A DNA stretch of 12,879 nt from an uncultured Oscillospiraceae bacterium (lineage in GTDB: Bacteria > Bacillota > Clostridia > Oscillospirales > Oscillospiraceae). Below, piece by piece: positions 1-12,879 of the stretch. Every line of letters starts with the position of its first letter. The first letter of the stretch is position 1. Location: NCBI GenBank assembly GCA_934668285.1, contig CAKUNB010000036.1, positions 1 to 12,879 on the forward strand, written 5' to 3'. A program made the translations under genes and the position numbers. Under the pieces are notes generated by a model. The model did no database searches. It saw only the letters and a list, made by a program, of their open reading frames with translations, and was not told the DNA's origin.

Positions 1-449
1 TCATAGATGAGGTACTTCTGCTCGGGGTACTTGGTGGCGACTTCCTTCAGGTAGTCGGGCATCTGGTAGGTGCCGCAGATGATGAGGTCGTACTCGCCGG
101 ACTCGGAAACGTCGTACAGCGTGGAGAGCCAGGTGGGCTGATCTTCCTCGAGGCCGCCCATTTCGATGGTGGTGTACTCGATGCGGCCGGCAGCCTTCAG
201 CGCCTGAAGACCGGCTTCGGCGGAGTCGAAGAAGGACTTGTCGCCGAGGTTACCGTTGACGAGGTTGCAGACGTTGTAAACCTTGCCGTCTTCCTGCGTG
301 GGCTCTTCCTCAGCCTTGGTTTCGGTTGCGGGTTCGTCGCTCGACGCAGGAGCGTCGGTCTGCTCGGTGGGATTCTCAGCGGGGTTCGCACAGGCTGCCA
401 GAGCAAGCACCATGACGAGCGCGAGAAGCAGAGCAATGAGCTTTTTCAT
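1..449 (-). CDS. BMP/PnrA-family ABC transporter substrate-binding lipoprotein (3' end outside window)
   Basis: Only the first 149 codons are present. The protein opens with a lipoprotein signal (MKKLIALLLALVMVLALAAC); the lipobox is LAAC with the modified cysteine at residue 20. An acidic, Thr/Pro/Glu-rich linker follows to about residue 55. The folded domain then begins with VYNVCNLVNGNLGDKSFFDS (58-76), which matches the LGDKSFxDS opening typical of the BMP family (basic membrane protein, PnrA-like). Characterised members bind purine nucleosides outside the membrane and feed an ABC importer. The ATG at 447-449 has a GGAGG site in the upstream TTTTTTGGAGGAAAGAAA. The gene is divergent from an adenosine deaminase, which supports a nucleoside role, but the ligand is inferred. 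The permease and ATPase would be expected beyond the left edge. No lesion is seen in the visible part. Confidence 0.85.
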   Translation of the reverse strand, partial: MKKLIALLLALVMVLALAACANPAENPTEQTDAPASSDEPATETKAEEEPTQEDGKVYNVCNLVNGNLGDKSFFDSAEAGLQALKAAGRIEYTTIEMGGLEEDQPTWLSTLYDVSESGEYDLIICGTYQMPDYLKEVATKYPEQKYLIY

Positions 450-475
450 TTTCTTTCCTCCAAAAAATTATTTAT

Positions 476-490
476 GTATCGATTCGATAC
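476..490. promoter_or_regulatory. palindromic operator candidate at the BMP gene start of transcription
   Basis: GTATCGATTCGATAC is a perfect inverted repeat with 7-base arms around one central base. It occupies about +1 to +15 of the predicted BMP transcript, directly after the -10 box, where a bound repressor would block transcription. Its sequence and odd spacing differ from the ACGT-centred sites elsewhere in the window, so a different regulator is likely. No protein is assigned. Confidence 0.5.
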
Positions 491-496
491 GCCTTC

Positions 497-525
497 ATTC
501 TAACGTCTTTCTTTGGAATTGTCAA
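497..525 (-). promoter_or_regulatory. sigma-A-type promoter of the BMP lipoprotein gene
   Basis: Read on the minus strand, a perfect -35 TTGACA (520-525) is followed after 17 bases by TAGAAT (497-502), one mismatch from consensus. The predicted start of transcription is near 490, giving a leader of about 40 bases before the ATG at 449. Confidence 0.75.
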
Positions 526-637
526 CAATAAATTTAAGAAGAATTCGGAATCACATTGACGGTTTGTACAAGGAGATGGATAAATGCACATCATATACAC
601 TAAAAAATTTTGTTTGCGGGCGGAGAAGCTGCCGCAC

Positions 638-665
638 TTGACATTGCGCTGTGGCCGGTTATAAT
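638..665 (+). promoter_or_regulatory. consensus promoter of the adenosine deaminase gene
   Basis: TTGACA (638-643), a 16-base spacer and TATAAT (660-665) are both exact sigma-A consensus boxes. Transcription should start near 672, about 27 bases before the ATG at 699, with a GGAAGGGA ribosome site between. No operator-like palindrome is visible here. Confidence 0.75.
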
Positions 666-698
666 GATAAGAGAGAAAAACGGAAGGGAAGTGCGGCA

Positions 699-1684
699 AT
701 GAAGACGAGGCTGCCAAAAATTGAACTCCATCTGCATCTGGACGGTGCGATTCCGAAGCGGCTGTTCTGGGAGCTGGCGCAGGAAAAGGGCGTTGCGCTG
801 CCGGTGGACAGCTACGCCGCGTTCGAGCAGTGGCTTGTGCCTACCTCGCGCGCTTTGAGCTGCCGCTGCAGCTCATGCAGGACGCCGGGAGCATCGCGCG
901 CGTTACGAGGGAGCTGCTGCTGGAGCTTGCGGCGCAGGGGCACATTTACGACGAGATCCGCTTTGCACCGCAGCTGCACTGCCGCGCGGGCCTTTCTCAG
1001 CGCGGCGCGATTGAGGCGGTGCTTGAAGGCAGAGCGGAGGCGCTGGCGCTGCTGCCGGACTACGACTGCGGAATTCTGCTGTGCGCCATGTCCGTCGGCG
1101 CGGCCTCGGCGAATATGGAGCAGAATCTGGAAACGGTGCGCCTTGCGCCGGATTACCTCGGCCGGGGCGTGGCCGGTATCGATCTCGCCGGAGCGGAGGG
1201 GCTGGTACCGCTTGCGGACTTCCGGCCGGTATTTGATCTGGCAAAGGAGCTTGGAATTCCGTTTACCTGCCATGCCGGCGATTCCGGCGGACTGGAGTCC
1301 ATCGCGTCCGCGCTTTCCTTTGGCGCGGTCAGACTCGGACACGGCCACCATATTTATGACGACCCGGCGCTGTGTGCGCTTGCCATCGAGCGCGGCGTCA
1401 CGCTGGAAATCTGCCCGAGCAGCAATATCCAGTGCAAGACGCAGCCGTCCTATGCCGCGCATCCGGCCAAAAAGCTGCTGGAGCTGGGCATGCGCATTTG
1501 TATCAGTACGGACAACATGACGCTCGCCGCCGTGACGCTGGACGACGAATACCGCCACTGCGTGACGGAAATGGGCTTTACCGAGCAGGATCTGCGCACG
1601 ATGAACCGCTACGCCGCCGAGGCCGCCTTCCTGCCGGAGGAGAAACGCCGCCGCCTCCTGACCCGCCTCGCAGCAGAAGCCTGA
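699..1684 (+). pseudogene. add: adenosine deaminase, frame broken near 836-841
   Basis: The family converts adenosine or deoxyadenosine to inosine and ammonia in the cytoplasm, using zinc. The ATG at 699 opens a frame with LPKIELHLHLDGAIPKR, which carries the metal-binding HxH (H11, H13). That frame is meaningful only to about position 836 (FEQWL). The rest of the enzyme lies in another frame from about 836 to the TGA at 1684: YLARFELPLQLMQ, EIRFAPQLH, CHAGD (His codon at 1271), RLGHGHHI, EICPSSNIQ and ISTDNMT. Family members usually have about 11 residues between the two halves (VPxxCxSLxE-like) where only five bases remain here. A deletion of roughly 28 bases, 3n+1, would explain both the gap and the frame change. 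The acid after the catalytic histidine is Asp (HAGD), where HAGE is usual. As written, no complete deaminase would be made. An assembly error is possible. Confidence 0.8.
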
Positions 1685-1696
1685 GCAAAACGGCAG

Positions 1697-1714
1697 ATAC
1701 AATATATATTGTAT
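1697..1714. repeat. perfect 18-bp palindrome
   Basis: ATACAATATATATTGTAT reads the same on both strands over all 18 bases. It lies 12 bases after the deaminase stop and 10 bases before the GC-rich terminator. It could be a regulator site (TACA-TTGTA half-sites) or an AT-rich RNA stem. No function can be assigned. Confidence 0.6.
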
Positions 1715-1724
1715 TGACAAGTCG

Positions 1725-1752
1725 AGCGCCCTCTCCGGAGGGCGCTTTCTTG
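1725..1752 (+). terminator. Rho-independent terminator after adenosine deaminase
   Basis: AGCGCCCTC (1725-1733) pairs perfectly with GAGGGCGCT (1738-1746) across a TCCG loop, and the stem runs into a T-rich TTTCTT tail. It lies about 40 bases after the deaminase stop and should separate that gene from the CoA operon. Confidence 0.8.
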
Positions 1753-1766
1753 ATGCGGCGCAATAG

Positions 1767-1791
1767 AAAAATTGTGCAGCAGGCAATTTTT
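1767..1791. terminator. AT-rich hairpin, possible second or antisense terminator
   Basis: AAAAATTG (1767-1774) and CAATTTTT (1784-1791) form a perfect 8-base inverted repeat around a 9-base loop, with further Ts after it. An A-tract on one side and a T-tract on the other make it usable in either direction, but the stem is low in GC, so terminator activity is uncertain. Confidence 0.35.
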
Positions 1792-1841
1792 TTCGGCAGA
1801 TTGTACGATTTTTCGCTGCTGTTTTTGGTGATTATCCCCGA

Positions 1842-1870
1842 TTGACAAACGGAAGAATTGAGAGTATACT
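1842..1870 (+). promoter_or_regulatory. promoter of the CoA-thioester operon
   Basis: TTGACA (1842-1847) is followed after exactly 17 bases by TATACT (1865-1870). Transcription should start near 1877, leaving an unusually long leader of about 184 bases before the ATG at 2061. Operator-like palindromes lie just after the start and again near the gene. Confidence 0.75.
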
Positions 1871-1881
1871 TGAGTTAAATG

Positions 1882-1897
1882 ATGAACACGTTTTCAT
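1882..1897. promoter_or_regulatory. LacI-type operator A
   Basis: ATGAACACGTTTTCAT is a palindrome centred on CG with seven of eight base pairs matching. It begins about five bases after the predicted start of transcription, a classic repressor position. It belongs to a group of six similar sites in this window, the others being at 2020, 3701, 7768, 9277 and 9436. Confidence 0.7.
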
Positions 1898-1987
1898 TTT
1901 CAATGGTGCTTGCAAATGAAAAATCAAGGATTTTCTTTGGAGTATATCTGAAAATAGCAAGTGTTCCGAATCTATTTAAGAAATTAC

Positions 1988-2010
1988 GGGCGCGGAAACG
2001 CCTATTTTTT
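1988..2010 (+). terminator. terminator-like hairpin in the CoA-operon leader (possible attenuator)
   Basis: GGCG (1989-1992) pairs with CGCC (1999-2002), with a possible extra G-U pair, around a six-base loop (CGGAAA). A run of six Ts (2005-2010) follows shortly after. The stem is short, so a working terminator is uncertain. Its place between promoter and first gene would allow premature termination. Confidence 0.35.
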
Positions 2011-2019
2011 CGATCGATG

Positions 2020-2035
2020 ATGAAAACGTATTCAT
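2020..2035. promoter_or_regulatory. LacI-type operator B
   Basis: ATGAAAACGTATTCAT has seven of eight pairs matching around a central CG. It lies 26 bases upstream of the acyl-CoA synthetase ATG, inside the transcribed leader. Its centre is 138 bases from that of operator A, about 13.1 helical turns at 10.5 bases per turn, so the two sites face the same side of the helix. Confidence 0.7.
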
Positions 2036-2060
2036 AAGTCTTTCGACAGGAGGGTCTGCA

Positions 2061-3662
2061 ATGTTCGCCGGCAAACAGCTGTGGGATCGAAGCTTCACGG
2101 AGCACATGCAGCAGCGCGAGATCGACGGGCTGCGCTACGACGTCTATCCGAATCTGCCGAAGAATCTGTACGCGGCCCTGCAGCAAACGGCTGCGGCCTA
2201 TCCCGACCGGATCGCCGTCGTCGACGACGACGGTACCCGCCTGACCTACTCGGCGCTGCTGCGCATGGTCGACCGTTTTGCCTACTTCCTCAGCAACCGC
2301 TTCTCTGTCGGCGCAGGGAAGCATGTGGCGCTGATGCTCTACAGCGGCGCGGTGTTCTGCGTTTCCTACCTCGCGCTGACGAAGCTCGCAGCGGTCACGC
2401 TGGCCCTGCCGACCAAGTTCCGCCGCGAGGAGGTCCTTGCGCTGCTGGAAAAGTCAGACGCGGCGCTGATTCTGTGCGATGTTGACTATGCCGACTGGAT
2501 GGCGCCGCTGCGCCGCAAGGGCACGCAGTGTCTGGTGACCGGCCACTCGGCCGAGAGCCTTGCGCCGTATCTGTCCCAGATTCCCGCGCAGGCAGACGCG
2601 CGGTGCGGCGGAGAGGAAACCGATCCGGCCATTCTGATGTACACCTCCGGAACGACCTCCCTGAGCAAGGGCGCGCTGCTGACGAATCTCAACGTGATGC
2701 ACTCCGTGGAAACCTACCGCTCGCTGCTCGGCATCACGCCGGAGGACAAGACGGTGATCGGCGTGCCGATCTATCACGTGACCGGCCTGATTGCGCTGCT
2801 GAGCCTGTTCCTCTATGTTGGCGGAACAGTATATTTACACAAACGCTTTAACGCAACAAGAATTTTACGCTGTGTTGAACAGGAGGGGATCACCTTCCTG
2901 CATGGCGCGCCGACGGTGTTCTCTCTGCTGCTGCAGGAAAAGGCGAGCTTTCCACACCTGCCGTCGCTGCGGCTGATCCTCTGCGGCAGCAGCTATATGC
3001 CAAAGGAAAAAATTCTGGCCATGCACGACTGGCTGCCGGAAACGGAGTTCCGGACGGTTTACGGCATGACCGAAACCTCCTCGCCCGCCACGCTTTTTCC
3101 CTGCGACACGGCGACCAGTCCTTATATCACCTCCTGCGGCCTGCCGGTGCCGTGCCTGTCGATGCGGGTCGTCGACGAGCAGGGCGCAGAGCTTCCACTG
3201 ATGCAGGTTGGCGAGGTGCAGATGAAGGGCACGGTGATCCTGCGGGAGTACTACAAGCAGCATGTGCCCGAGCTGAGCGACGACGGCTGGCTTTCGACCG
3301 GCGATATGGGATATTTTAATGAACAGGGCTATCTTTTCCTCGTCGACCGCAAGAAGGATATGATCAACCGCGGCGGGGAAAAGATTTGCAGCTACGACGT
3401 CGAGCACGCGCTGTACCATCTCAAGGGCGTTGCAGATGCTGCGGTCGTCGGAATTCCGGATGAAACCTACGGCGAGGTCGCCGCGGCGGTGGTAGTCCCG
3501 CAGCCCGGCGTGAGGCTGACGCAGGAGGGACTGCAGGAGCAGTTGGCCGAGCGGCTGGCCCGCTACAAGATTCCGGCCAGAATCCTCTTTGCCGGGCAGC
3601 TTCCGACGACGGCGAACGGAAAAATCGACAAAAAGCTGCTGCGCAGCCGGTTCCGCGACTAG
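2061..3662 (+). CDS. acyl-CoA synthetase (AMP-forming, ANL superfamily)
   Basis: A 533-residue cytoplasmic enzyme expected to activate a carboxylic acid with ATP and CoA, giving acyl-CoA, AMP and pyrophosphate. The landmarks are in order: phosphate-binding loop TSGTTSLSKG (195-204), adenine-binding YGMTETS (334-340), STGD with the ribose-contacting Asp at 415, the hinge region DRKKDMINRGGEKI (from 429), and PTTANGKIDK with the catalytic Lys at 521. Length and motif order are normal for long- or medium-chain acyl-CoA ligases. The loop has Ser where family members usually have Gly and Pro (TSGTTGxPKG). The start has AGGAGGG six bases upstream. It is the first gene of the CoA operon, under operators A and B. 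The substrate cannot be read from sequence; the operon hints at a hydroxy acid. Confidence 0.88.
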   Translation: MFAGKQLWDRSFTEHMQQREIDGLRYDVYPNLPKNLYAALQQTAAAYPDRIAVVDDDGTRLTYSALLRMVDRFAYFLSNRFSVGAGKHVALMLYSGAVFCVSYLALTKLAAVTLALPTKFRREEVLALLEKSDAALILCDVDYADWMAPLRRKGTQCLVTGHSAESLAPYLSQIPAQADARCGGEETDPAILMYTSGTTSLSKGALLTNLNVMHSVETYRSLLGITPEDKTVIGVPIYHVTGLIALLSLFLYVGGTVYLHKRFNATRILRCVEQEGITFLHGAPTVFSLLLQEKASFPHLPSLRLILCGSSYMPKEKILAMHDWLPETEFRTVYGMTETSSPATLFPCDTATSPYITSCGLPVPCLSMRVVDEQGAELPLMQVGEVQMKGTVILREYYKQHVPELSDDGWLSTGDMGYFNEQGYLFLVDRKKDMINRGGEKICSYDVEHALYHLKGVADAAVVGIPDETYGEVAAAVVVPQPGVRLTQEGLQEQLAERLARYKIPARILFAGQLPTTANGKIDKKLLRSRFRD

Positions 3663-3700
3663 CCGGTATGGCGGTGAAAAATCGCCGGATTGCGCAGATG

Positions 3701-3716
3701 ATGAAAACGTATACAT
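3701..3716. promoter_or_regulatory. LacI-type operator C, inside the CoA operon
   Basis: ATGAAAACGTATACAT has six of eight pairs matching and differs from operator B by one base. Flanking bases are also shared (GATG before, AA after), so the two look like copies. It lies in the 95-base gap between the synthetase and the CoA-transferase. No good -35 box accompanies the TATACA within it. It may be an auxiliary or roadblock site, or mark a weak internal promoter. Confidence 0.6.
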
Positions 3717-3757
3717 AACAGCCGGTTTATCAAAAACCGCGCCATCGGGAGGAAGCT

Positions 3758-5350
3758 ATGAAACGACCGGTATTTATGACAGGCGAGCAGGCGGCGCAGA
3801 TGATCGAAAGCGGCAAGACGATTGCCACCATCGGCATGACGCTGGTTTCCGCCTCGGAGACGATTTTAAAGGCGCTGGAGCAGCGCTTTCTGGAAACGGG
3901 CGCGCCGAATCAGCTGACGCTGCTGCACTCCTGCGGCCAGAGCGACCGCGACCGCGGCATTCAGCATTTTGCTCATGAGGGCATGCTGGCGCGGATCGTC
4001 GGCGGCCACTGGGGGCTGCAGCCGAAGATCATGAAGCTGATTGCGGAAAACAAGCTGCTGGCCTACAACTTCCCGCAGGGGCAGTTCGCGCAGCTCTACC
4101 GCAGCATGGCGGGCGGCGAGCCGGGCAAGATCACCAAGGTCGGCCTCGGCACCTTCATCGACCCGCGCATGGGCGGCGGCAAGATGAACGAGCTGACGAA
4201 GGACGCGCCGGAGCTGATCGACGTGGTGACGATCGGCGGGGAGGAATACCTTCGCTACAAGCCGATTCCGATCGACTATTGCATCATCCGCGGTACGCGG
4301 ATCGATGAAAACGGCAACCTTTCGACCGAAGAAGAAGCCATGAGCCTCGAGGTCTTCTCGGCGGTGATGGCCTGCAAGCGCTTCGGCGGCAAGGTCATCG
4401 CGCAGGCAAAATATAAGGTCGCCGCCAACACCATCCACTGCAAGCAGGTGACGGTGCCCGGCGTCTTTATCGACGCGGCGGTGATCTGCCCCGAGCCGGA
4501 GGTCGACCACCGGCAGACGCACAGCTTCGCCTTCAATCCCGCCTACTGCGGCAATGTCCGCGTGCCGGACGGCGGCGAGAGCGCCATTCCGCTGACGGTG
4601 CGCAAGGTCATCGGCCGCCGCGCGATGATGGAGCTGTCGGCCAACGATATTCTCAACGTGGGAACAGGAATCCCGAACGACGTTGTCGGCCCGATCATTG
4701 CGGAGGAGGGCATTTCCGACGATGTGACCATCACGGTCGAGTCGGGCATTTACGGCGGCGTGCCGATGGGCGGCATCGACTTCGGCATTGCAAAGAACAA
4801 TTTCGCGCTGGTTCGCCACGACGACCAGTTTGATTTCTACAACGGTCAGGGCGTTGACATCACCTTCATGGGCGCCGGACAGATCGACGCTGAGGGCAAC
4901 GTCAACGCGACGCGGCTGGGACCGAATCCCACCGGCGCGGGCGGCTTCATTGACATCACGACCAACGCCAAGCACGTGGTCTTCTGCTCGACCTTCACCG
5001 GCAAGGGGCTGGAATGCGACTTCACCGGCGGCAAGCTGAGAATTGTCAAGGAGGGCAGCCTGATCAAGTTTGTCAATCAGCTCCAGCAGGTCTCCTATAA
5101 CGGCCTGATTGCCCGCAAAAAGGGCCAGAAAATGCACTATGTCACCGAGCGCGCCGTCTTTGAGCTGCGGCCGGAGGGGCTGGTGCTGACGGAGATTGCC
5201 GAGGGGATCGATCTGCAGACGCAGATTCTTGACCTGATGGAGTTCCGGCCGATCATCAGCAGACGGCTGCGGGTCATGCCCGCGGCGATCTACCGCGACG
5301 GCGTATTTGGACTGAAGCAACTGTTAGCAGAAAAAGGAGGAAGCATATGA
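3758..5350 (+). CDS. family I acyl-CoA:acetate/3-ketoacid CoA-transferase, fused alpha-beta form
   Basis: A 530-residue single-chain CoA-transferase of the propionate CoA-transferase/YdiF type. It moves CoA between an acyl-CoA and a free acid through a glutamyl-CoA intermediate. The N-terminal alpha-like half carries GKTIATIGMTLVSASETILK and ends near AFNPAYCG. The beta-like half starts around VRKVIGRRAMMEL and carries the motif TVESGIYGGVPMGG, whose Glu328 matches the catalytic glutamate position of the family (near 330 in related fused enzymes). A small hairpin (3723-3739) and GGGAGG (3747-3752) precede the ATG. The stop overlaps the thiolase start (ATGA), so the two are translationally coupled. 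In this operon it would recycle CoA from product acyl-CoA to incoming acid. No lesions are seen. Confidence 0.9.
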   Translation: MKRPVFMTGEQAAQMIESGKTIATIGMTLVSASETILKALEQRFLETGAPNQLTLLHSCGQSDRDRGIQHFAHEGMLARIVGGHWGLQPKIMKLIAENKLLAYNFPQGQFAQLYRSMAGGEPGKITKVGLGTFIDPRMGGGKMNELTKDAPELIDVVTIGGEEYLRYKPIPIDYCIIRGTRIDENGNLSTEEEAMSLEVFSAVMACKRFGGKVIAQAKYKVAANTIHCKQVTVPGVFIDAAVICPEPEVDHRQTHSFAFNPAYCGNVRVPDGGESAIPLTVRKVIGRRAMMELSANDILNVGTGIPNDVVGPIIAEEGISDDVTITVESGIYGGVPMGGIDFGIAKNNFALVRHDDQFDFYNGQGVDITFMGAGQIDAEGNVNATRLGPNPTGAGGFIDITTNAKHVVFCSTFTGKGLECDFTGGKLRIVKEGSLIKFVNQLQQVSYNGLIARKKGQKMHYVTERAVFELRPEGLVLTEIAEGIDLQTQILDLMEFRPIISRRLRVMPAAIYRDGVFGLKQLLAEKGGSI

Positions 5351-6543
5351 AACAGGTAGTGTTGGTATCCGGCGTTCGTCTGCCGGTCGGCTCGTTCGGC
5401 GGCAGCCTGAAAACCGTCAGCGCCATCGATATGGGCGCAATGGTCGTCAAGGAGGCCGTCGCCCGCGCGGGACTCGCGCCCGAGACGGTGGACGAGGTGA
5501 TCGTCGGTCAGGTCGGCCAGATTGCGGAGTGCGGCTTTGTCGCGCGTGCCATCAGCCTGAAGGCAGGCCTGCCCAAGTAAACGACGGCCTATTCCGTCAA
5601 CCGCCAGTGCGGCTCCGGCCTGCAGGCCATTGCCGACGCGGTGATGGAGATTCAGACCGGCCACGCCGAGGTCGTGGTCGCAGCGGGCGCGGAGAATATT
5701 TCTCAGCTTCCGTACTATGTAAAGGACGCCCGCTGGGGTGCGAGAATGGGGCACAAGGTCTTTGAGGACGGCGTGATCGACATTCTGACGTGGCCGCTGA
5801 ACAACAGCCACAACGGCGTTACGGCGGAGAACGTGGCCAATCAGTTCCACGTGACCCGCGAGGAGCAGGACGAATTCGCCCTCGAGAGCCACAGACGCGC
5901 GGTTGCGGCGATCAAGGCCGGAAAATTCCGCGAGGAAATCCTGCCGGTGGAGCTGAAGGACCGCAAGGGCAACGTTACGGTGTTCGACACCGATGAAGGA
6001 CCCAGAGACGGCCTGACCATCGATAAGCTGCAGAAGCTGCGCCCCTGCTTCGTCAAGGAAAACGGCACCGTTACCGCCGGTAACTCCTCCAGCCTGAACG
6101 ACGGCGCGGCCGCAGTGGTCGTGATGTCGGCGGAGAAGGCGGCGGAGCTTGGCATCGTGCCGAAGCTGGCCATTGAGGGCTTTGCCGTCGCCGGCCTGGA
6201 GGCCGAGATCATGGGCTACGCCCCGAAGCTGTCGAGCGAAAAGCTCGCCAAGGAGCTGCAGCTCGACCTGAAGTCCATCGACATGTTTGAAATCAACGAG
6301 GCCTTTGCAAGTCAGGCCTACGCGGTGCGCCGCGACCTCGGGCTGGATCCGGAGAAGGTCAATATCTACGGCGGCGGCATCTCCATCGGCCATCCTATCG
6401 GCGCGACCGGCTGCGTGCTTGCGGTCAAGGTGCTCTATGAGCTGCAGCGCACCGACAAGAAGGACGCCATGATCAGCATGTGCATCGGCGGCGGCCAGGG
6501 CATTTCAATGTACTTTACCAAATGGGAAGGGGCTGCAAAATGA
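5347..6543 (+). pseudogene. thiolase (acetyl-CoA C-acyltransferase) with in-frame TAA at codon 78
   Basis: Thiolases split 3-ketoacyl-CoA with CoA to give acetyl-CoA and a shortened acyl-CoA, or run in reverse. The whole gene is present in one frame: MKQVVLVSGVRLPVGSFGGS at the start, NRQCGSGLQAI with the nucleophile Cys88, EINEAFASQAY, GGGISIGHPIGATG with His349, and CIGGGQGISM with Cys379. These positions agree closely with the Zoogloea enzyme (Cys89, His348, Cys378). The frame is cut by TAA at 5578-5580, between GLPK and TTAYSVNRQC. Family members often have Glu at this place, so one GAA-to-TAA change would explain it. No bases are inserted or lost. Normal decoding yields only 77 residues, without the active cysteine. 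ATGA overlaps join it to both neighbours, so the stop could also lower expression of the next gene. Confidence 0.85.
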
Positions 6544-7694
6544 AACTTAGTGAGCTGAAAACGGTTGCCGTCATCGGCGCCGGTGATATGGGACACGGCA
6601 TCGCGCAGGTTGCGCTGATGGCGGGCTACCACGTGAATCTGTGCGATATTAAGCAGGAATTTGTCGATCGCGGTATTTCCCGCATCTACGCCAGCCTCGA
6701 CAAACTGTGCACGAAAGGGAAAATTGACGCGGCGCGCGTCGAGGCGATCAAAAACGGCGGCATCAGCAGCTATACCGTCATCGAGGATGCCGTGGCCGAT
6801 GCGGAGCTGATCATCGAGGCCGTGCCGGAGCGGCTGGACATTAAAAACAGCACACTCTCCCGCATTTCGTCCGCCTGCAAGGAGACGGCGGTGATTGCGA
6901 CCAACTCCTCGACCATGAGCATCACGCTGCTGGCCAAGGCGGTCAGAAAACCGGAGAATATGGTCGGCATGCACTACTTTAACCCCGCCGTGCTGATGAA
7001 GCTGGTGGAGGTCATCTGCGGCGACGAGACGAGCGAGGAGACGACGGACTTTGCCCGCGCCTACGCCGAGCACGTCGGAAAGACCGTGGTCGTTGCGCGC
7101 AAGGATCGACCGGGCTTTATCGCCAACCGCATTGTTGCGCCGGTCGTGGTCTACAACGGACTGTGCGTCGATGTGGACGGCATTACGCCGACGGATATCG
7201 ACCTTTCCATGATGAAAACCGGCCAGAAGATGGGGCCGATGGAGCTGGCGGACTACACCGGCGTCGACGTGACCTCCTTCTGTCAGGATTATTACCACGA
7301 GCACCTCTCGCCGGAGTACGGCCCGTCCGAGGCGGCAAAGAAGCTGCTGGCGGAAAAGCATCTCGGCAAGAAGACCGGCAGCGGCTATTACGACTGGAGC
7401 GCGGGCGGCCGGCCGGTGCTCGACGAGAAGCTTTACACGGGCAAATACGACCCGAAAATTCCGAATTTCATCCAGGCAAACGAGGCCTGCAAGCTCTACG
7501 AGGAGGGCGTGTGCTCTCTGGAGGAGTGCGACACGGCGATCCGCCTCGGCTACAACATGTGCGGGCCGATTGACTACATTCAGGCCTTCCTGCCGGAGGA
7601 AATCGTTGCTGCGCTCAACGGGGCGGCCGATCACTTCGGCAAGGAAATCTTCCGCCCCACAAAGACGATCGCGACCGGCGCTTACCGGCGCTGA
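6540..7694 (+). CDS. 3-hydroxyacyl-CoA dehydrogenase, NAD-dependent
   Basis: A 384-residue enzyme that oxidises 3-hydroxyacyl-CoA to 3-ketoacyl-CoA, or the reverse. The N-terminal Rossmann domain has GAGDMG (13-18) in VAVIGAGDMGHGIAQVALMA. The catalytic pair is His145 (GMHYFNP) and Glu157 (KLVEVI), spaced 12 residues apart as in characterised enzymes. The C-terminal domain begins near RPGFIANRI and includes MGPMELADYTGVDV. A second, shorter C-terminal repeat (QANEACKLYEEG to MCGPIDY) makes it longer than the usual 280-290 residue butyryl-type enzymes. The ATG overlaps the thiolase stop (ATGA), and an AAGGGG ribosome site lies upstream. It is the last gene of the CoA operon. No hydratase domain is fused to it and none is encoded nearby. 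Confidence 0.88.
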   Translation: MKLSELKTVAVIGAGDMGHGIAQVALMAGYHVNLCDIKQEFVDRGISRIYASLDKLCTKGKIDAARVEAIKNGGISSYTVIEDAVADAELIIEAVPERLDIKNSTLSRISSACKETAVIATNSSTMSITLLAKAVRKPENMVGMHYFNPAVLMKLVEVICGDETSEETTDFARAYAEHVGKTVVVARKDRPGFIANRIVAPVVVYNGLCVDVDGITPTDIDLSMMKTGQKMGPMELADYTGVDVTSFCQDYYHEHLSPEYGPSEAAKKLLAEKHLGKKTGSGYYDWSAGGRPVLDEKLYTGKYDPKIPNFIQANEACKLYEEGVCSLEECDTAIRLGYNMCGPIDYIQAFLPEEIVAALNGAADHFGKEIFRPTKTIATGAYRR

Positions 7695-7733
7695 CGCACC
7701 TGAAAAAACAGCACAGGGATTGCGCAGGCATGC

Positions 7734-7762
7734 TTGAACTTCACTGCCGGATATGGTATAAT
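7734..7762 (+). promoter_or_regulatory. promoter of the lacI-cupin unit
   Basis: TTGAAC (7734-7739), a 17-base spacer and a perfect TATAAT (7757-7762) preceded by TGG, which forms an extended -10. Transcription should start near 7769. No clear terminator separates it from the dehydrogenase stop at 7694, so some read-through from the CoA operon is possible. Confidence 0.75.
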
Positions 7763-7767
7763 ATGGC

Positions 7768-7783
7768 AGTAATACGTATTCAT
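7768..7783. promoter_or_regulatory. LacI-type operator D, at the lacI start of transcription
   Basis: The core AATACGTATT is a perfect 10-bp palindrome. The right arm, ACGTATTCAT, is identical to that of operator B; the left arm is degenerate (AGTAATAC). It covers the predicted +1 of the lacI promoter, which suggests autorepression. Confidence 0.65.
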
Positions 7784-7795
7784 ACGGAGTTTTTT

Positions 7796-7858
7796 ATGGA
7801 AATTCCCTGTTTACAGGGCCTTCTAAAATCAAGCCAGAACAGCGAGGAACAAGCATGA
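7796..7858 (+). CDS. possible 20-codon leader ORF overlapping the lacI start
   Basis: ATG at 7796 follows GGAG (7786-7789) at a good six-base distance. It runs 20 codons (MEIPCLQGLLKSSQ...EEQA) to a TGA that overlaps the lacI ATG as ATGA. Inside it, CCCTG (7805-7809) and CAGGG (7814-7818) can form a five-pair hairpin. The well-placed ribosome site and exact ATGA junction suggest a translated leader coupled to lacI. A frame this short could arise by chance. No similarity to a known peptide is recognised. Confidence 0.35.
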   Translation: MEIPCLQGLLKSSQNSEEQA

Positions 7859-8865
7859 AGCTGAATAATGTAGCAACCTCCAAGGACGTGGCGATGCTCG
7901 CGGGAGTGTCGCAGGCAACGGTTTCCCGCGCCTTTTCCAACAGCGCAAACCTTGCGCCGGAGACAAGAATGCGCGTCATGGAGGCGGCCAATACCCTGAA
8001 TTACAAACCCAACGCACTGGCGCGGAGCTTAGTTTCGACCCACAGCAACATCATCGGCATCGTCAAGGGGTATTCGCAGAATACCGTCTTTGCAGAGATG
8101 CTGTCCGAGGTCGTCTATGGCCTGCAGAGAGCGGACAAGCGCGTGATCTATTTTGAAGCCGAGAAGAACGACTCAATTGATAGCCTGACCGACAAGATTA
8201 TGCAGTATCAGATCGAGGGTCTGATCCTGATGTATGCGAACCTGACCTCCGATCTGACGCTCAGCTGCCGCCAGCGGGATATTCCGGTGCTGCAGATGCA
8301 CCGCTATTCCAAGGCGCTGCGCGCCAACGCCGTCCTTCCCGATAACGCGCGGGCGGCAGCCGAGGCGGCAACGCTGTTCGTCGAGCGGGGCTTCCGGAAC
8401 TTTGTCTATATGGGCGGCGAAATTAACTCGTCGTCGAATATGGAGCGGCAGCTCGGCTTTCTGAAGCGGCTGGAGCACTTCGGCTTTAACAATCCTATCG
8501 TGCGCAACGGGCTGTATACCTATGAATCCGGCCGCGACACGATGCGCGCACTGGCCCCGAAGCTGCCGCTGCCCTGCGCAATTCTCTGCGGCAACGACCT
8601 GATGGCCTTCGGCGCCATCGACGTGCTGAAATACGAGCTTGGCCTTCGCGTCGGCGAGGATGTCGCCCTCATCGGCTTTGACAACAGCTTTATCGGCGAG
8701 TGGCCGTCGTATTCCCTCAGCTCCTTTGCCCAGCCGATTGCGGAAATGGCGCAGGACGGCCTGACTCTTTTGTTTGCAAACATCAATGACCATAGCATGG
8801 CGCCGGTCGAGCGCCGCTACCCGCTGGTGCTCATCGAGCGCGGAACAACAAAACAGGTAAAATAA
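7855..8865 (+). CDS. LacI/GalR-family transcriptional regulator
   Basis: A 336-residue regulator. The helix-turn-helix is at residues 8-29 (SKDVAMLAGVSQATVSRAF), followed by the hinge NYKPNALARSL (49-59), whose Leu55 matches the minor-groove leucine that inserts into the central CG step of operators. From about residue 62 (THSNIIGIV) a periplasmic-binding-protein-like effector domain extends to the end, with PCAILCGNDLMAFGAIDVL and DVALIGFDNS typical of the family. The AGGA site (7845-7848) is six bases before the ATG. The gene lies between the CoA operon and the importer. Six CG-centred palindromes near these units fit its expected binding mode, so it is likely the local repressor. The effector is unknown; a sugar-like compound or pathway intermediate is plausible. 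The cupin gene follows after 13 bases. Confidence 0.92.
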   Translation: MKLNNVATSKDVAMLAGVSQATVSRAFSNSANLAPETRMRVMEAANTLNYKPNALARSLVSTHSNIIGIVKGYSQNTVFAEMLSEVVYGLQRADKRVIYFEAEKNDSIDSLTDKIMQYQIEGLILMYANLTSDLTLSCRQRDIPVLQMHRYSKALRANAVLPDNARAAAEAATLFVERGFRNFVYMGGEINSSSNMERQLGFLKRLEHFGFNNPIVRNGLYTYESGRDTMRALAPKLPLPCAILCGNDLMAFGAIDVLKYELGLRVGEDVALIGFDNSFIGEWPSYSLSSFAQPIAEMAQDGLTLLFANINDHSMAPVERRYPLVLIERGTTKQVK

Positions 8866-8878
8866 AAGGAGGAGAGCA

Positions 8879-9262
8879 ATGAAATTTGTCCGAGAAAGCG
8901 AAGCGCACAGCGATGTGTTTGACGCGCCCTACAAGCGCAAGATCACACACATCATCACGCCGTGGTCGGTCGGGTCGCAGCATGTCTGGCTTGGCACCTG
9001 CACCTATCCGCCCGGATTTACCAGCAACCCCCATGCGCACGAGGCGCAGGAGGAGACCTTCTACTGCATCAGCGGGAAGGGCCAGATCAAGGTGAATGAT
9101 ACCGTTTTCGATCTGGTGCCGGGAGACACGGTGTTTGTCGAGCCGGGCGAGGTGCATATGTGCCTGAACCTGCACGGCACCGAGGATTTCAAGGTGGTTT
9201 CCGTGGTAACACCGCCGTTTTCCGAGGCGGGCTTCCGGCAGGATCATACACCTAAGAAATAA
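8879..9262 (+). CDS. small single-domain cupin protein
   Basis: A 127-residue protein with one complete cupin barrel. Motif 1 is GFTSNPHAHEAQEETFYCIS(G), residues 46-66, with candidate metal ligands His52, His54 and Glu58 or Glu59. Motif 2 is GDTVFVEPGEVHMCLN (82-97), with His93. All four metal-binding positions are kept, so a metal-binding enzyme (isomerase, epimerase or lyase type) or a small-molecule binder is plausible. There is no signal peptide, DNA-binding domain or membrane segment. The gene is 13 bases after lacI, with AAGGAGGAG overlapping the lacI end, so the two are surely co-transcribed. Co-location suggests a role in the same substrate pathway, such as sugar isomerisation before CoA activation. 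The specific function is unknown. Confidence 0.85.
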   Translation: MKFVRESEAHSDVFDAPYKRKITHIITPWSVGSQHVWLGTCTYPPGFTSNPHAHEAQEETFYCISGKGQIKVNDTVFDLVPGDTVFVEPGEVHMCLNLHGTEDFKVVSVVTPPFSEAGFRQDHTPKK

Positions 9263-9276
9263 TTTTTTTCGGTAAC

Positions 9277-9292
9277 GTGAATACGTATGCAA
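9277..9292. promoter_or_regulatory. LacI-type operator E, upstream part of the importer leader
   Basis: GTGAATACGTATGCAA is centred on CG. The inner ATACGTAT is a perfect palindrome, and TGAATACGTATGCA matches at six of seven pairs. It lies 15 bases after the cupin stop and 160 bases (centre to centre) from operator F. Confidence 0.6.
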
Positions 9293-9329
9293 GTTGACGA
9301 TACAAGCACCCGCGTTTTTTCATCAAAAA

Positions 9330-9358
9330 TAGAGAAAAATTGTGAAAATGTATATACA
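9330..9358 (+). promoter_or_regulatory. weak promoter candidate for the ABC importer operon
   Basis: TAGAGA (9330-9335) is followed after 17 bases by TATACA (9353-9358), placing a start near 9365 between operators E and F. The -35 matches consensus at only four of six bases. A good TTGACG at 9294-9299 has no suitable -10 at normal spacing. The real promoter remains uncertain. Confidence 0.3.
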
Positions 9359-9435
9359 AGATCGAGCTTTCTCGGCGAGTTTTTGTAAATAATGCAGGAG
9401 CAATATGACATTTTCAAATTCCGGCAACAGATATA

Positions 9436-9453
9436 TCTGGAAACGTATGCAGA
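9436..9453. promoter_or_regulatory. LacI-type operator F, near the importer genes
   Basis: TCTGGAAACGTATGCAGA pairs at seven of nine positions around a central CG. Its right arm, ACGTATGCA, is identical to that of operator E. It lies 79 bases upstream of the permease ATG, probably in the transcribed leader. Confidence 0.55.
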
Positions 9454-9531
9454 CACGCCGCCCGAATTGCTCAAAATTCCGGCGCAAAACGACGGCGCAG
9501 CACGAACGATTACTTTTATTTGGAGGCTCGT

Positions 9532-10506
9532 ATGGCGGAAAAACTTAGAATGAAGGCCGAGAACGCAACCGGCAAGAAAAATCTATTCCTGAAATTCATC
9601 CAGAGGTCAGGCCTGCTCCTGATTCTCGTCGCACTGATGATTCTCGCATCCATCCTTTCCCCGAAATTTTTAACCTATAAGAACCTGTTCAACATCCTGC
9701 GGCAGATTTCGATCCTCGGCGTGCTTGCCGTCGGTATGACGTTCGTCATTATCAGCAACGGCATTGACCTCTCGGTCGGCAACGTGCTGTCGCTTTCCTG
9801 CGTGCTTGTCCCGCTGGTAGCGCCGCTGGTCAATAACAACATCATCCTGATCTGCCTGATCTGCATCGCGGCGGGCGCCTTCATGGGCACCTGCACCGGC
9901 ACGCTGATCGCCTACGGCGGCATGCAGCCCTTCATGGCGACCTTCGGCATGATGACCATCGCGGAAGGCCTTGCCTTTATGCTCAGCGACGGCCGCCCGA
10001 TCATCCTCAGCGATACCCGCTGGACAACCTTCGGCAACGGCTCGACCGCCGGTCTGCCGAACCTCGCGATCATCTTCATCATCATCGTCCTGATCGGTCA
10101 GTTCGTTATTTCCAAGACGCTCTACGGTGTGAATACCTACGCCATCGGCAATAACGACGTCGCCACCCGCCTTTGCGGCATCAACACCAAGCGCACCCGC
10201 CTGTTTGCCTACATTATCAGCGGCGCGCTCGCGGCGGTCGGCGGCCTTCTGATGACGGCGCGCGTCGGCGTCGGCGACCCCGGCATCGGCGGCGACTATT
10301 CCCTCGACGCGATTGCCTCGGTCATCGTCGGCGGTACCCGTATGGGCGGCGGCTACGGCAGCGTCCTGAAATCCTTCCTCGGTGCGGCCATGATCGGTAT
10401 TCTGAACAACGTGTTCAACCTGCTGGGTATTTCCGCTTACCCGCAGATGGTATTCAAGGGTTTGATCATTATTTTCGCTGTCCTGATGGGGCAGAAGAAG
10501 AAATAA
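9532..10506 (+). CDS. ribose-type ABC transporter permease (RbsC family)
   Basis: A 324-residue inner-membrane permease of the carbohydrate uptake type 2 family. After a short charged N-terminus come about ten hydrophobic segments, including 27-44, 59-76, 85-101, 104-126, 176-193, 224-241, 281-299 and 306-319. The family hallmark GMTFVIISNGIDLSVGNVLS lies at 68-87. The cytoplasmic loop that contacts the ATPase is near NTKRTRLFAY (218-227), and GDYSLDAIASVIVGGTRMGG (254-273) is also typical. The ATG at 9532 is chosen because GGAGG (9522-9526) sits five bases before it; an in-frame TTG at 9520 overlaps that site. It is the first gene of the importer operon. The substrate of this family is often a pentose or similar polyol, but cannot be read from the permease. 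Confidence 0.92.
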   Translation: MAEKLRMKAENATGKKNLFLKFIQRSGLLLILVALMILASILSPKFLTYKNLFNILRQISILGVLAVGMTFVIISNGIDLSVGNVLSLSCVLVPLVAPLVNNNIILICLICIAAGAFMGTCTGTLIAYGGMQPFMATFGMMTIAEGLAFMLSDGRPIILSDTRWTTFGNGSTAGLPNLAIIFIIIVLIGQFVISKTLYGVNTYAIGNNDVATRLCGINTKRTRLFAYIISGALAAVGGLLMTARVGVGDPGIGGDYSLDAIASVIVGGTRMGGGYGSVLKSFLGAAMIGILNNVFNLLGISAYPQMVFKGLIIIFAVLMGQKKK

Positions 10507-10542
10507 TGTTTGAACATATATTATTCGAAGGGAGACAAACAA

Positions 10543-11643
10543 ATGACAAAGAAGATTCTCGCATTGATCCTCGCACTCGCAATGCTGTCTGTTCTGTTCG
10601 TTGGCTGCGCCGGCGAAACCGAACCGACGCCGACCGATGCACCTGTATCGGCTGACACCGACAATCCCACGGAAGCACCCAGCAGCGCAACCGGAGACCT
10701 CGATCTCAGCTCCAAGAAGGTTGGCTTTGCACAGGACACCCTGAACCAGCCATGGAGAAGCAATCAGGCAGACTGTGTCGTCAATGAATTTGCCAAGTAC
10801 GGCATTACCTGCACCGTCACCGACGGCCAGGGGAGCTCTGAGACCCAGACTGCGAACATTGAGGACATGATCGCCGGCGGACTTGACCTCCTGATGGTCA
10901 GCCCTGCGCAGGAAGCTGCACTGACCCCCGCTGTCAGCGCCGCCTACAAGGCCGGAATCCCCGTTGTCTGCATCGACCGCGGCATTACCAGCGATGACTT
11001 CACCTGCTATGTCCACGCGGATAACTACGCCATCGGCGGCATGGTCGCCGACTGGGTCGCCGAAAAGCTGACCGAGAAGTACGGCGAGCCGAAGGGCAAG
11101 GTTGTCGTTCTCGAGGGCGTCGCCGGCGCTACCACCACCGTGCAGCGCGGCACCGGCTTCATCAACCGCCTCGCAGAGGCTTATCCGAACATCGAGATCA
11201 TTGCCAGCCAGCCTGCGGACTTCAACAGAGCGACGGCGATGACCATCATGGAAGACTTCCTGCAGACCTATGACCAGATCGATATCGTCTTCACCCACGC
11301 CGACGAGTCCACCATGGGCGCGGTTATGGCAATTGAGAACACCGACCGCCGCGACGAGATGCTCATCTGCTCCGTCAACGGCACGACCGAAGGCATCAAG
11401 GCGATCCTTGACGGCCGCATGGACATGACCGTCATGTACACCAACGCGTCGGGTCCGGGCGTTGAGATGGCCATTGAGATTCTGAAGGGCAACACCGTCC
11501 CCAAGAACATCACCATCGATCCGCTGGTCATTGACGCCAGCAACGCAAGCGACTACTACTTCGAAGGCACCTACTCTCCCGATCCTCTCGGACTGGATCA
11601 GTCCACCTACGAAACGAGCGACACCTACACCCCGCAAGGCTAA
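10543..11643 (+). CDS. ribose-type ABC transporter substrate-binding lipoprotein (RbsB-like)
   Basis: A 366-residue lipoprotein expected to capture the substrate outside the cell and deliver it to the neighbouring permease. The signal peptide is MTKKILALILALAMLSVLFV, with Cys22 in LFVGC as the lipid site; Phe at -3 is less usual than Leu. An acidic Thr/Pro linker runs to about residue 55. The periplasmic-binding-protein type 1 fold follows: KKVGFAQDTLNQPWRSNQAD, then IEDMIAGGLDLLMVSPAQEAAL, GIPVVCIDRG, and VFTHADESTMGAVMAIEN in the C-terminal lobe. The ATG at 10543 is preceded by GGGAG at eight bases; an in-frame TTG at 10510 lies before this site and is rejected. It lies 36 bases after the permease. 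A strong hairpin follows the gene, which could raise its mRNA level relative to the ATPase. The ligand is unknown. Confidence 0.9.
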   Translation: MTKKILALILALAMLSVLFVGCAGETEPTPTDAPVSADTDNPTEAPSSATGDLDLSSKKVGFAQDTLNQPWRSNQADCVVNEFAKYGITCTVTDGQGSSETQTANIEDMIAGGLDLLMVSPAQEAALTPAVSAAYKAGIPVVCIDRGITSDDFTCYVHADNYAIGGMVADWVAEKLTEKYGEPKGKVVVLEGVAGATTTVQRGTGFINRLAEAYPNIEIIASQPADFNRATAMTIMEDFLQTYDQIDIVFTHADESTMGAVMAIENTDRRDEMLICSVNGTTEGIKAILDGRMDMTVMYTNASGPGVEMAIEILKGNTVPKNITIDPLVIDASNASDYYFEGTYSPDPLGLDQSTYETSDTYTPQG

Positions 11644-11666
11644 CGGATCACCTACACGCAACACCC

Positions 11667-11696
11667 CCCTGCCGGCGGCGAAATCCGCCGGCAGGG
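11667..11696 (+). other. intercistronic 12-bp GC-rich hairpin between binding protein and ATPase genes
   Basis: CCCTGCCGGCGG (11667-11678) pairs perfectly with CCGCCGGCAGGG (11685-11696) across CGAAAT. No T-tract follows (TATGAGAG), so it is not a normal Rho-independent terminator. Such stems after binding-protein genes are known to protect upstream mRNA from 3' exonucleases and lower downstream expression. That role here is inferred. Confidence 0.75.
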
Positions 11697-11720
11697 TATG
11701 AGAGAACTGGAGTAAGCGAT

Positions 11721-12879
11721 ATGTCATTATTAAAAGTTGAAAACATTTGCAAATCGTTTCCCGGCGTAAAGGCACTGGACGACGTCACTCTGGAATATGA
11801 AAAGGGCGAGGTTCATGCCATGGTTGGCGAAAACGGCGCGGGCAAAACGACTCTCATGCGCGTGATCACCGGCATATACGCACAGGACGAAGGCGAAATC
11901 TATTTCGAAGGCGAAAAGGTTAGATTCCATAACACGCGTGAATCGCAGGACAAGGGCATTGCCATTATTCATCAGGAGCTGAATATGCCGGTCAATCTTT
12001 CGATTGCGGAATATATGTTCCTCGGCCGTATGCCCGTGACAAAGGTCGGAACCGTCAAGCGCAAGGTAGCGGCCGAGCGGTGCAAGGATCTTCTGACGAC
12101 CGTCGAGATCGAGCGTGATCCGCGGACGAAGATCTCGGAGCTGACGGTCGCAGAGCAGCAGCTCGTTGAGATTGCCCGTGCGCTTTCGCTCAACAGCAAG
12201 CTGATCATCATGGACGAGCCGACCTCTGCGTTAAATAAGAATGAAGCGGCGAATCTGTTTAAGATCATCCGAAACCTCAAGCAGCAGGAGGTCACCATCA
12301 TTTACATCTCCCATAAAATGGACGAGATTTTCGAAATCACCGACCGCATCACCATCATGCGCGATGGCCGCGTGATTGGGACGAAGCCCACAAAGAGCTT
12401 TACCCACGAAGAGATCGTGATGATGATGACCGGCAAGGACCTGAGCGACAACTATTTCGCAAAGGACGAGTCCAGAGCACCGGCCAGCCACGAGGGCCGC
12501 ACACCGATTCTTTCGGTGCAGGGCATTACCTCGAACGCGCGCAATCTCAATACGGTCAGCTTTGACCTGTATGAGGGCGAGGTGCTCGGCATCGCCGGCC
12601 TGCTGGGCGCGGGCAGAACGGAGCTGTTCAAGGCCATCTTCGGCGCTGACCGCAAAACCGGCGGCGAGGTGTATCTGAACGGCAAGCCGGTCAAGATCCG
12701 CAGCACGACCGACGCAGTTAAGGCCGGCATTATGCTGCTCCCCGAGGACCGCAAGACCGAAGGCCTGATCCTGCAGATGTCGATCCGAGACAATATTATT
12801 GAGCCGTCGCTCAAGGCAATCTCCAAGTGCGGGCTGCTCAACCGCAAGAAGGCCAAGGTGCTGTCCAAGGAATACACGC
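11721..12879 (+). CDS. ribose-type ABC transporter ATP-binding protein (RbsA family, 3' end outside window)
   Basis: The first 386 codons are present; family members are about 500 residues. This is the fused two-domain ATPase of carbohydrate uptake type 2 importers, located on the cytoplasmic face with the RbsC-type permease. Domain 1 has Walker A GENGAGKT (36-43), Q-loop Gln85, the signature LTVAEQQ (141-147), Walker B LIIMDEP with Asp165 and Glu166, and switch His198. Domain 2 begins near residue 262. It has the lysine-free Walker A variant GLLGAGRT (293-300) that is normal for this family, and PEDRKTEGL (341-349). GGAG (11709-11712) lies eight bases before the ATG. The gene is third in the operon, after a strong hairpin. 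No lesion is visible up to the window end. Confidence 0.92.
   Translation, partial: MSLLKVENICKSFPGVKALDDVTLEYEKGEVHAMVGENGAGKTTLMRVITGIYAQDEGEIYFEGEKVRFHNTRESQDKGIAIIHQELNMPVNLSIAEYMFLGRMPVTKVGTVKRKVAAERCKDLLTTVEIERDPRTKISELTVAEQQLVEIARALSLNSKLIIMDEPTSALNKNEAANLFKIIRNLKQQEVTIIYISHKMDEIFEITDRITIMRDGRVIGTKPTKSFTHEEIVMMMTGKDLSDNYFAKDESRAPASHEGRTPILSVQGITSNARNLNTVSFDLYEGEVLGIAGLLGAGRTELFKAIFGADRKTGGEVYLNGKPVKIRSTTDAVKAGIMLLPEDRKTEGLILQMSIRDNIIEPSLKAISKCGLLNRKKAKVLSKEYT

Follow-up and report, generated by a model that had tools for sequence, protein, structure and literature searches.

Local regulators of the LacI family that control sugar utilization have been surveyed by Ravcheev et al. 2014 (PMC4052901), and in the available portion of that source their operators are even 16-bp palindromes centred on CG, more than one site lies 5′ of some operons, and importer genes are controlled together with catabolic genes. 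All these traits recur in the DNA analysed here, a stretch of 12879 bases from an uncultured Oscillospiraceae bacterium (contig CAKUNB010000036.1 of assembly GCA_934668285.1, positions 1 to 12,879; "the window" means this whole stretch), which carries a lacI gene, an operon for coenzyme A (CoA)-dependent enzymes and genes for a putative sugar importer of the ATP-binding cassette (ABC) type. It differs in its enzymes, which are CoA-dependent, whereas 176 of the 182 pathway-assigned groups in that portion of the survey control carbohydrate metabolism. We conclude that the window probably holds a local, autoregulated LacI regulon, in which five predicted, nearly identical operators would let one sugar-sensing repressor govern importer and CoA enzymes jointly; such control is common, and the present example is well supported.

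A similar enzyme set is described for Klebsiella michiganensis, whose deoxyribonate cluster (Price et al. 2019, PMC6365646), in the part of that paper available, likewise contains a CoA-synthetase, a CoA-transferase, a beta-hydroxyacyl-CoA dehydrogenase and a thiolase, a likeness of cluster composition. According to the same part, acyl-CoA intermediates were proposed, and such a cluster, together with a glycerate kinase and a lactonase, serves 2-deoxyribonate; the Klebsiella cluster also has two major facilitator superfamily transporters, and none of these additional proteins was seen in the window.

Two further systems are similar in part. The global regulator CcpA is also a LacI-family protein, and two of the window sites fit the catabolite-responsive element (cre) of Bacillus, but the window LacI lies far under the cut-off of the CcpA model, and in three of the four genomes scanned its motif occurs at the lacI locus and nowhere else. 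With RbsR and the ribose importer RbsABC the window shares a LacI and an importer whose nearest models are of the ribose type, and a binding protein near ribose-binding structures; unlike that system, no ribokinase was seen in the window, and the binding protein differs at what we presume to be ligand positions. The curated Rbs models were all missed, with bit scores against cut-offs of 152.9/382 for RbsR, 406.3/745 for RbsA (a partial open reading frame), 159.7/337 for RbsB and 242.1/398 for RbsC.

Five predicted operators in the window

A sequence-only reading of this DNA had proposed six related operators, all in non-coding gaps. When its consensus was searched with up to three mismatches, 10 matches were found, corresponding to five places read on both strands (1882, 2020, 3701, 7768 and 9277), against 0.12 expected, and ten matches were reached in none of 200 shuffles. 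The consensus taken from other genomes, ATGAATACGTATTCAT, finds the identical five places (0.01 expected; five reached in 0/200 shuffles). We have also built a weight matrix from 10 sites at loci L001, L002 and L003 of three other genomes, whose LacI relatives carry the helix VSQATVSRAF. The five window sites rank at the top with 24.3, 22.8, 22.4, 17.8 and 17.7 bits, separated by an 11-bit gap from the next at 6.9, in a ranking that is partly dependent, the ten sites having first been located using the window consensus; a search by symmetry alone recovered four of the ten among its two best per locus. The highest score in 200 shuffled windows, 14.1 bits, is under those of all five operators, and positions scoring at least 0 bits number 15 in the window and 4.35 on average in shuffled windows.

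All five sites are intergenic; in our gene map, intergenic DNA amounts to 1259 bases of the window. The proposed sixth site, CTGGAAACGTATGCAG, fared differently. Its CG lies at 9444–9445, so the 16-mer spans 9437–9452 on the plus strand, one base off the proposed 9436, and with 2.2 bits and matrix rank 13 it is at chance level and was dropped. The idea of related operators in non-coding gaps thus stands for five sites, and of the two sites suggested 5′ of the importer only that at 9277 is retained.

The operators, all given on the plus strand, are placed as follows. As had been suggested, two precede the CoA operon and one is internal to it. Operator 1 (1882–1897, ATGAACACGTTTTCAT, matrix rank 4) lies 11 bases past the second hexamer of a promoter-like site, TTGACA-17-TATACT (1842–1870, plus strand, 11/12 matches); operator 2 (2020–2035, ATGAAAACGTATTCAT, rank 1) lies 25 bases 5′ of the ligase start; and operator 3 (3701–3716, ATGAAAACGTATACAT, rank 5) sits within the 95 bases that separate the ligase gene from that of the CoA-transferase. 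Operator 4 (7768–7783, AGTAATACGTATTCAT, rank 2) covers the presumed transcription start of lacI, as claimed earlier, behind the promoter-like TTGAAC-17-TATAAT (7734–7762, plus strand, 10/12 matches, with TG ahead of the second hexamer), and operator 5 (9277–9292, GTGAATACGTATGCAA, rank 3) lies between the cupin and importer genes. Operators 1 and 4 are each directly 3′ of their promoter-like sites, and an operator at the promoter or transcription start is in the classical position for repression. These placements back the claimed control of lacI by its own product and that of the CoA operon, whereas importer control rests on one predicted site, not the two claimed.

The promoter scan returned 14 promoter-like sites in the window where 4.9 are expected. 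It found none on the plus strand within 50 bases of 2020, 3701 or 9277; we therefore infer the roles of these three operators, which could be looping, a roadblock or action at an unseen promoter. Operator 2 lies 138 bases downstream of operator 1, beyond a terminator-like hairpin in the leader (1988–2003, plus strand) that is followed by ATTTTTTC and is a weak prediction, 17 such matches occurring in the window with 12.6 expected. The leader matched no Rfam family at E ≤ 1, and its RNA fold is only mildly stable (z −2.24). In that predicted fold, operators 1 and 2 (1882–1897 and 2020–2035) pair together around the hairpin.

The window LacI as the likely binder

The regulator encoded at 7855–8865 (plus strand) contains the recognition helix VSQATVSRAF and scores well above the cut-offs of PF00356 (57.4 bits, cut-off 27) and PF13377 (81.1 bits, cut-off 26.5). 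Its homologous loci were taken as the best 80 from a search of genome contigs, with 32–38% identity to the window LacI. Allowing up to two mismatches, we counted 26 occurrences of the motif across these 80 loci, versus 1.4 expected from five shuffles per locus; 18 of the loci carry it, some being close kin. Among the eight distinct loci with the helix VSQATVSR, six have the motif (L001, L002, L003, L064, L085 and L087). Two of these, L085 and L087, are outside the matrix set; L089 and L106 are without the motif. When the 600 bases 5′ of lacI were searched for the best CG-centred palindromic 16-mer, with no consensus supplied, the result was this motif in L001, L002 and L003.

Genome-wide scans at the same stringency gave a similar picture. 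All matches fall at the lacI locus in G001 (3/3), G003 (3/3) and G308 (1/1), and three of seven do so in G002; the reversed control pattern gave 0, 2, 0 and 1 matches in G001, G003, G308 and G002, respectively. Since relatives with the same helix carry the same operator beside their own lacI in six of eight loci, the five predicted operators are likely bound by the LacI at 7855, in agreement with the regulator named by the sequence-only reading.

Related CoA clusters in other Clostridia

Of 391 sampled Clostridia genomes, at least 4 contain relatives of the CoA-transferase with about 60% identity or more, and these lie in at least five clusters (L100–L103 and L141). Ligase, CoA-transferase and thiolase genes are together in 5/5, and lacI and importer genes lie within the 20-kb stretch around the CoA cluster, also in 5/5; Pfam gave the importer families of L100–L103, whereas those of L141 come from BLAST only. 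For scale, the 5.7 Mb of G002 contain 33 LacI-like matches. A 3-hydroxyacyl-CoA dehydrogenase is also present in L101–L103, and Pfam confirmed a short-chain dehydrogenase in L100 and L103.

In L101, L102 and L103 the LacI has a different helix (VSRSTVSR) and the operator is also different, TTGGGATCGATYCCAA. Counted over the whole genome as distinct places with up to two mismatches, G059 has 2 of its 4 inside the cluster, G086 has 4 of 5 there and G183 has 6 of 7; the reversed control gave 0, 3 and 1 strand matches. The G183 operators lie 5′ of the importer genes, between lacI and the ligase gene, within the ligase gene itself and between it and the CoA-transferase gene, an arrangement that backs the proposed link between importer and CoA enzymes. 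An operator in the ligase/CoA-transferase gap recurs at 8441 in L101, 7992 in L102 and 10479 in L103, with two mismatches each, comparable to the window site at 3701. The exception is the F. orotica cluster (L100), in which this gap is four bases long and a palindrome search of the gaps gave no clear operator. That one pathway can be controlled by LacI regulators that are not orthologous and whose motifs clearly differ is a published pattern, as described in the available part of PMC4052901.

Two features of these clusters are recorded separately. Operator-like matches occur inside the ligase gene at 9143 in L103, 9774 in L101 and 9333 in L102 (2, 3 and 2 mismatches), about 330–370 bases from the gene start. 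In L100 (10647–11513) and L103 (1479–2237), a metallo-beta-lactamase-fold hydrolase is encoded 5′ of the ribose-type importer that adjoins the CoA cluster; it may belong to the same pathway as a lactonase or an esterase.

Enzymes and candidate substrates

The CoA operon, read on the plus strand like all the genes in this section, encodes an acyl-CoA ligase (2061–3662; AMP-binding and AMP-binding_C domains), a CoA-transferase of the fused type (3758–5350; PF01144), a thiolase (5347–6543) whose frame is broken by TAA at 5578–5580, and a 3-hydroxyacyl-CoA dehydrogenase of 384 amino acids (6540–7694; 3HCDH_N and 3HCDH). The importer consists of a ribose-type ABC permease (9520–10506; BPD_transp_2), a substrate-binding lipoprotein of the ribose-binding type (10543–11643; Peripla_BP_4; a later start was chosen than that of the listed reading frame, 10510) and a ribose-type ABC ATPase (11721–12879) that is incomplete at the window end. 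It is a sugar importer by family only, and what it carries may be a sugar acid.

The four enzymes would suit a route in which a 3-hydroxy acid, probably one made from, or resembling, a sugar, is activated, oxidized and cleaved. After a published enterobacterial pathway we offer 2-deoxyribonate as a candidate, of which we remain doubtful: ligase, CoA-transferase, hydroxyacyl-CoA dehydrogenase and thiolase (the last with its interrupted frame) are in one cluster in the window, as in the deoxyribonate pathway. The ligase was matched in 10 of 198 genomes from the family of an Enterobacter genome, and in all eight of those ten that were examined, ligase, CoA-transferase and thiolase are in one gene run. 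Pfam identified a glycerate kinase in L134, L136 and L140, which are all three enterobacterial clusters with a candidate scanned; none was found among the five neighbours scanned in L133, the cluster with the enterobacterial thiolase nearest to that of the window. The CoA-transferase had no match in two Enterobacter genomes at E ≤ 1e-30. The part of the window thiolase behind the stop is 83% identical to that of L100, 76% to L133 and 61–65% to L101–L103, versus 48–50% for the enterobacterial L134, L136, L138 and L140. The window thiolase is thus nearer to those of L100 and L133 than to those of the other clusters compared, and the pathway may therefore serve a substrate other than deoxyribonate.

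In an alignment, the binding protein has Trp-Arg where the ribose-binding protein has Phe-Phe, and Asn in place of Asp; we take these to be ligand positions of the ribose-binding protein. The replacements may fit an acidic ligand, a hint from the alignment that is weakened by the sensor protein 2x7x, which also has Trp-Arg at those positions.

Weighing the regulon against its alternatives

Several observations weigh against the proposed regulon and pathway. The motif is missing at up to two mismatches from 62 of the best 80 LacI loci, and also from two with the same helix, L079 (one of those 62) and L106. No LacI ortholog above 45% identity was found on DNA among the best 80 loci; orthologs of 46–87% identity are known as proteins. 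Alignment searches of 391 Clostridia genomes and of 392 genomes from a single order returned 5 and 3 hits, respectively, all 31–36% identical, and viral contigs yielded six LacI loci (25–43% identity) from 23 candidate stretches. The G002 cluster that holds the closest CoA-transferase shows no clear operator, and its LacI, encoded about 6 kb away, has another helix. Neither glycerate kinase nor lactonase is among the nine window proteins scanned, in a window that ends within the importer. The TAA of the thiolase frame lies 5′ of the CGSG motif, presumably that of the catalytic cysteine, and the thiolases of L101 and L103 are open there; the stop may be a sequencing error, a decayed gene or recoding, and if it is real the pathway would be incomplete in the source organism. 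Finally, operators 2 and 3, two of the six sites first proposed, fit the Bacillus CcpA consensus WTGNNARCGNWWWCAW exactly (available part of PMC3510511).

It is rather unlikely that the local LacI binds these sites while importer and CoA enzymes serve two separate, co-controlled compounds. By family the importer is of the ribose type and the enzymes are of the fatty-acid type, and the importer type beside the CoA clusters varies, being ribose in L100, L103 and L141 (BLAST only) and amino-acid in L101 and L102, with an additional tripartite ATP-independent periplasmic (TRAP) transporter in L103. Yet importer genes and lacI accompany the CoA cluster in all five cases, and in G183 a single operator motif serves both importer and CoA operon.

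The fit to the Bacillus consensus would be accounted for if 1882, 2020 and 3701 were cre sites of a global CcpA, leaving only 7768 and 9277 to the local LacI and making the CoA operon glucose-responsive. The half-sites agree with such a division, since those of the CoA operon read AAAACGT or AACACGT and those at 7768 and 9277 read AATACGTAT. We nevertheless regard it as very unlikely: the matrix from LacI relatives puts all five sites first, the confinement of the motif to the lacI locus in G001, G003 and G308 is unlike a global regulator, solved CcpA chains have the helix VSMATVSR and the window LacI VSQATVSR, and the C. difficile cre motif RRGAAAANGTTTTCWW, in the portion of its source available, is without a central CG. 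That the window LacI is itself CcpA was rejected, its score of 136.3 bits being far from the ccpA model cut-off of 442.35, in addition to the different helix. Operators 2 and 3 may still be under double control by CcpA and the local LacI.

A chance or compositional origin of the near-palindromes has a negligible probability, for it accounts for the dropped sixth site but is refuted for the other five by their intergenic positions, the shuffles and the matrix.

Neighbouring genes

A small cupin (Cupin_2; 8879–9262, plus strand) follows lacI after a 13-base gap, from which it is probably co-transcribed with lacI. At the other end of the window, an adenosine deaminase gene (651–1684) is apparently in two frames with a break near 830, and is possibly decayed or misassembled. 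It adjoins a divergent gene for a PnrA-like nucleoside-type binding lipoprotein (Bmp, 3–694), in whose region there are strong promoter-like sites at 525–497 (minus strand) and 638–665 (plus strand, 12/12) and a near-palindrome, TGTATCGATTCGATACG, at 475–491. The consensus scan of the window gave no match to the LacI motif in the Bmp region (3–694).

Proposed mechanism and implications

Taken together, we propose that a dimer of the LacI from 7855 would bind the five CG-centred 16-bp operators and repress three units: the ligase/CoA-transferase/thiolase/dehydrogenase operon via 1882, 2020 and 3701, lacI with the cupin via 7768, and the ribose-type importer via 9277. Operators 1 and 4 would act at presumed transcription starts, and 2020 and 3701 would be auxiliary, through a loop or a roadblock. 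The imported compound, or its product, would release LacI. Judging by the enzyme families, the substrate would be converted into a CoA thioester, oxidized at C3 and then cleaved, the thiolase yielding acetyl-CoA and a shorter acyl-CoA; the CoA of the latter would be recovered by the CoA-transferase. Joint control of importer and CoA enzymes points to CoA-bound steps in the breakdown of the imported compound. Among the papers matched in a limited collection, none deals, judged by title, with such a LacI regulon combining these enzymes and this transporter.

More broadly, and tentatively, Clostridia may possess an anaerobic beta-oxidation of sugar acids (an ABC importer supplying a 3-hydroxy sugar acid to ligase, hydroxyacyl-CoA dehydrogenase and thiolase) over which LacI groups have independently taken control, with the operator in the ligase/CoA-transferase gap kept in a fixed role. 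If this is true, the internal operator would serve looping, or a separate setting of activation versus CoA recovery; that it is present with two repressor types so unlike each other poses a small puzzle of regulation. The importer and the enzymes, both of unknown substrate, narrow each other, since the cargo should be CoA-activatable and thiolase-cleavable. For one LacI group the analysis provides a motif that can be transferred, and for little-known Clostridia a substrate guess, and in our view its most interesting parts are the link between importer and CoA enzymes across genomes and the recurring internal operator.

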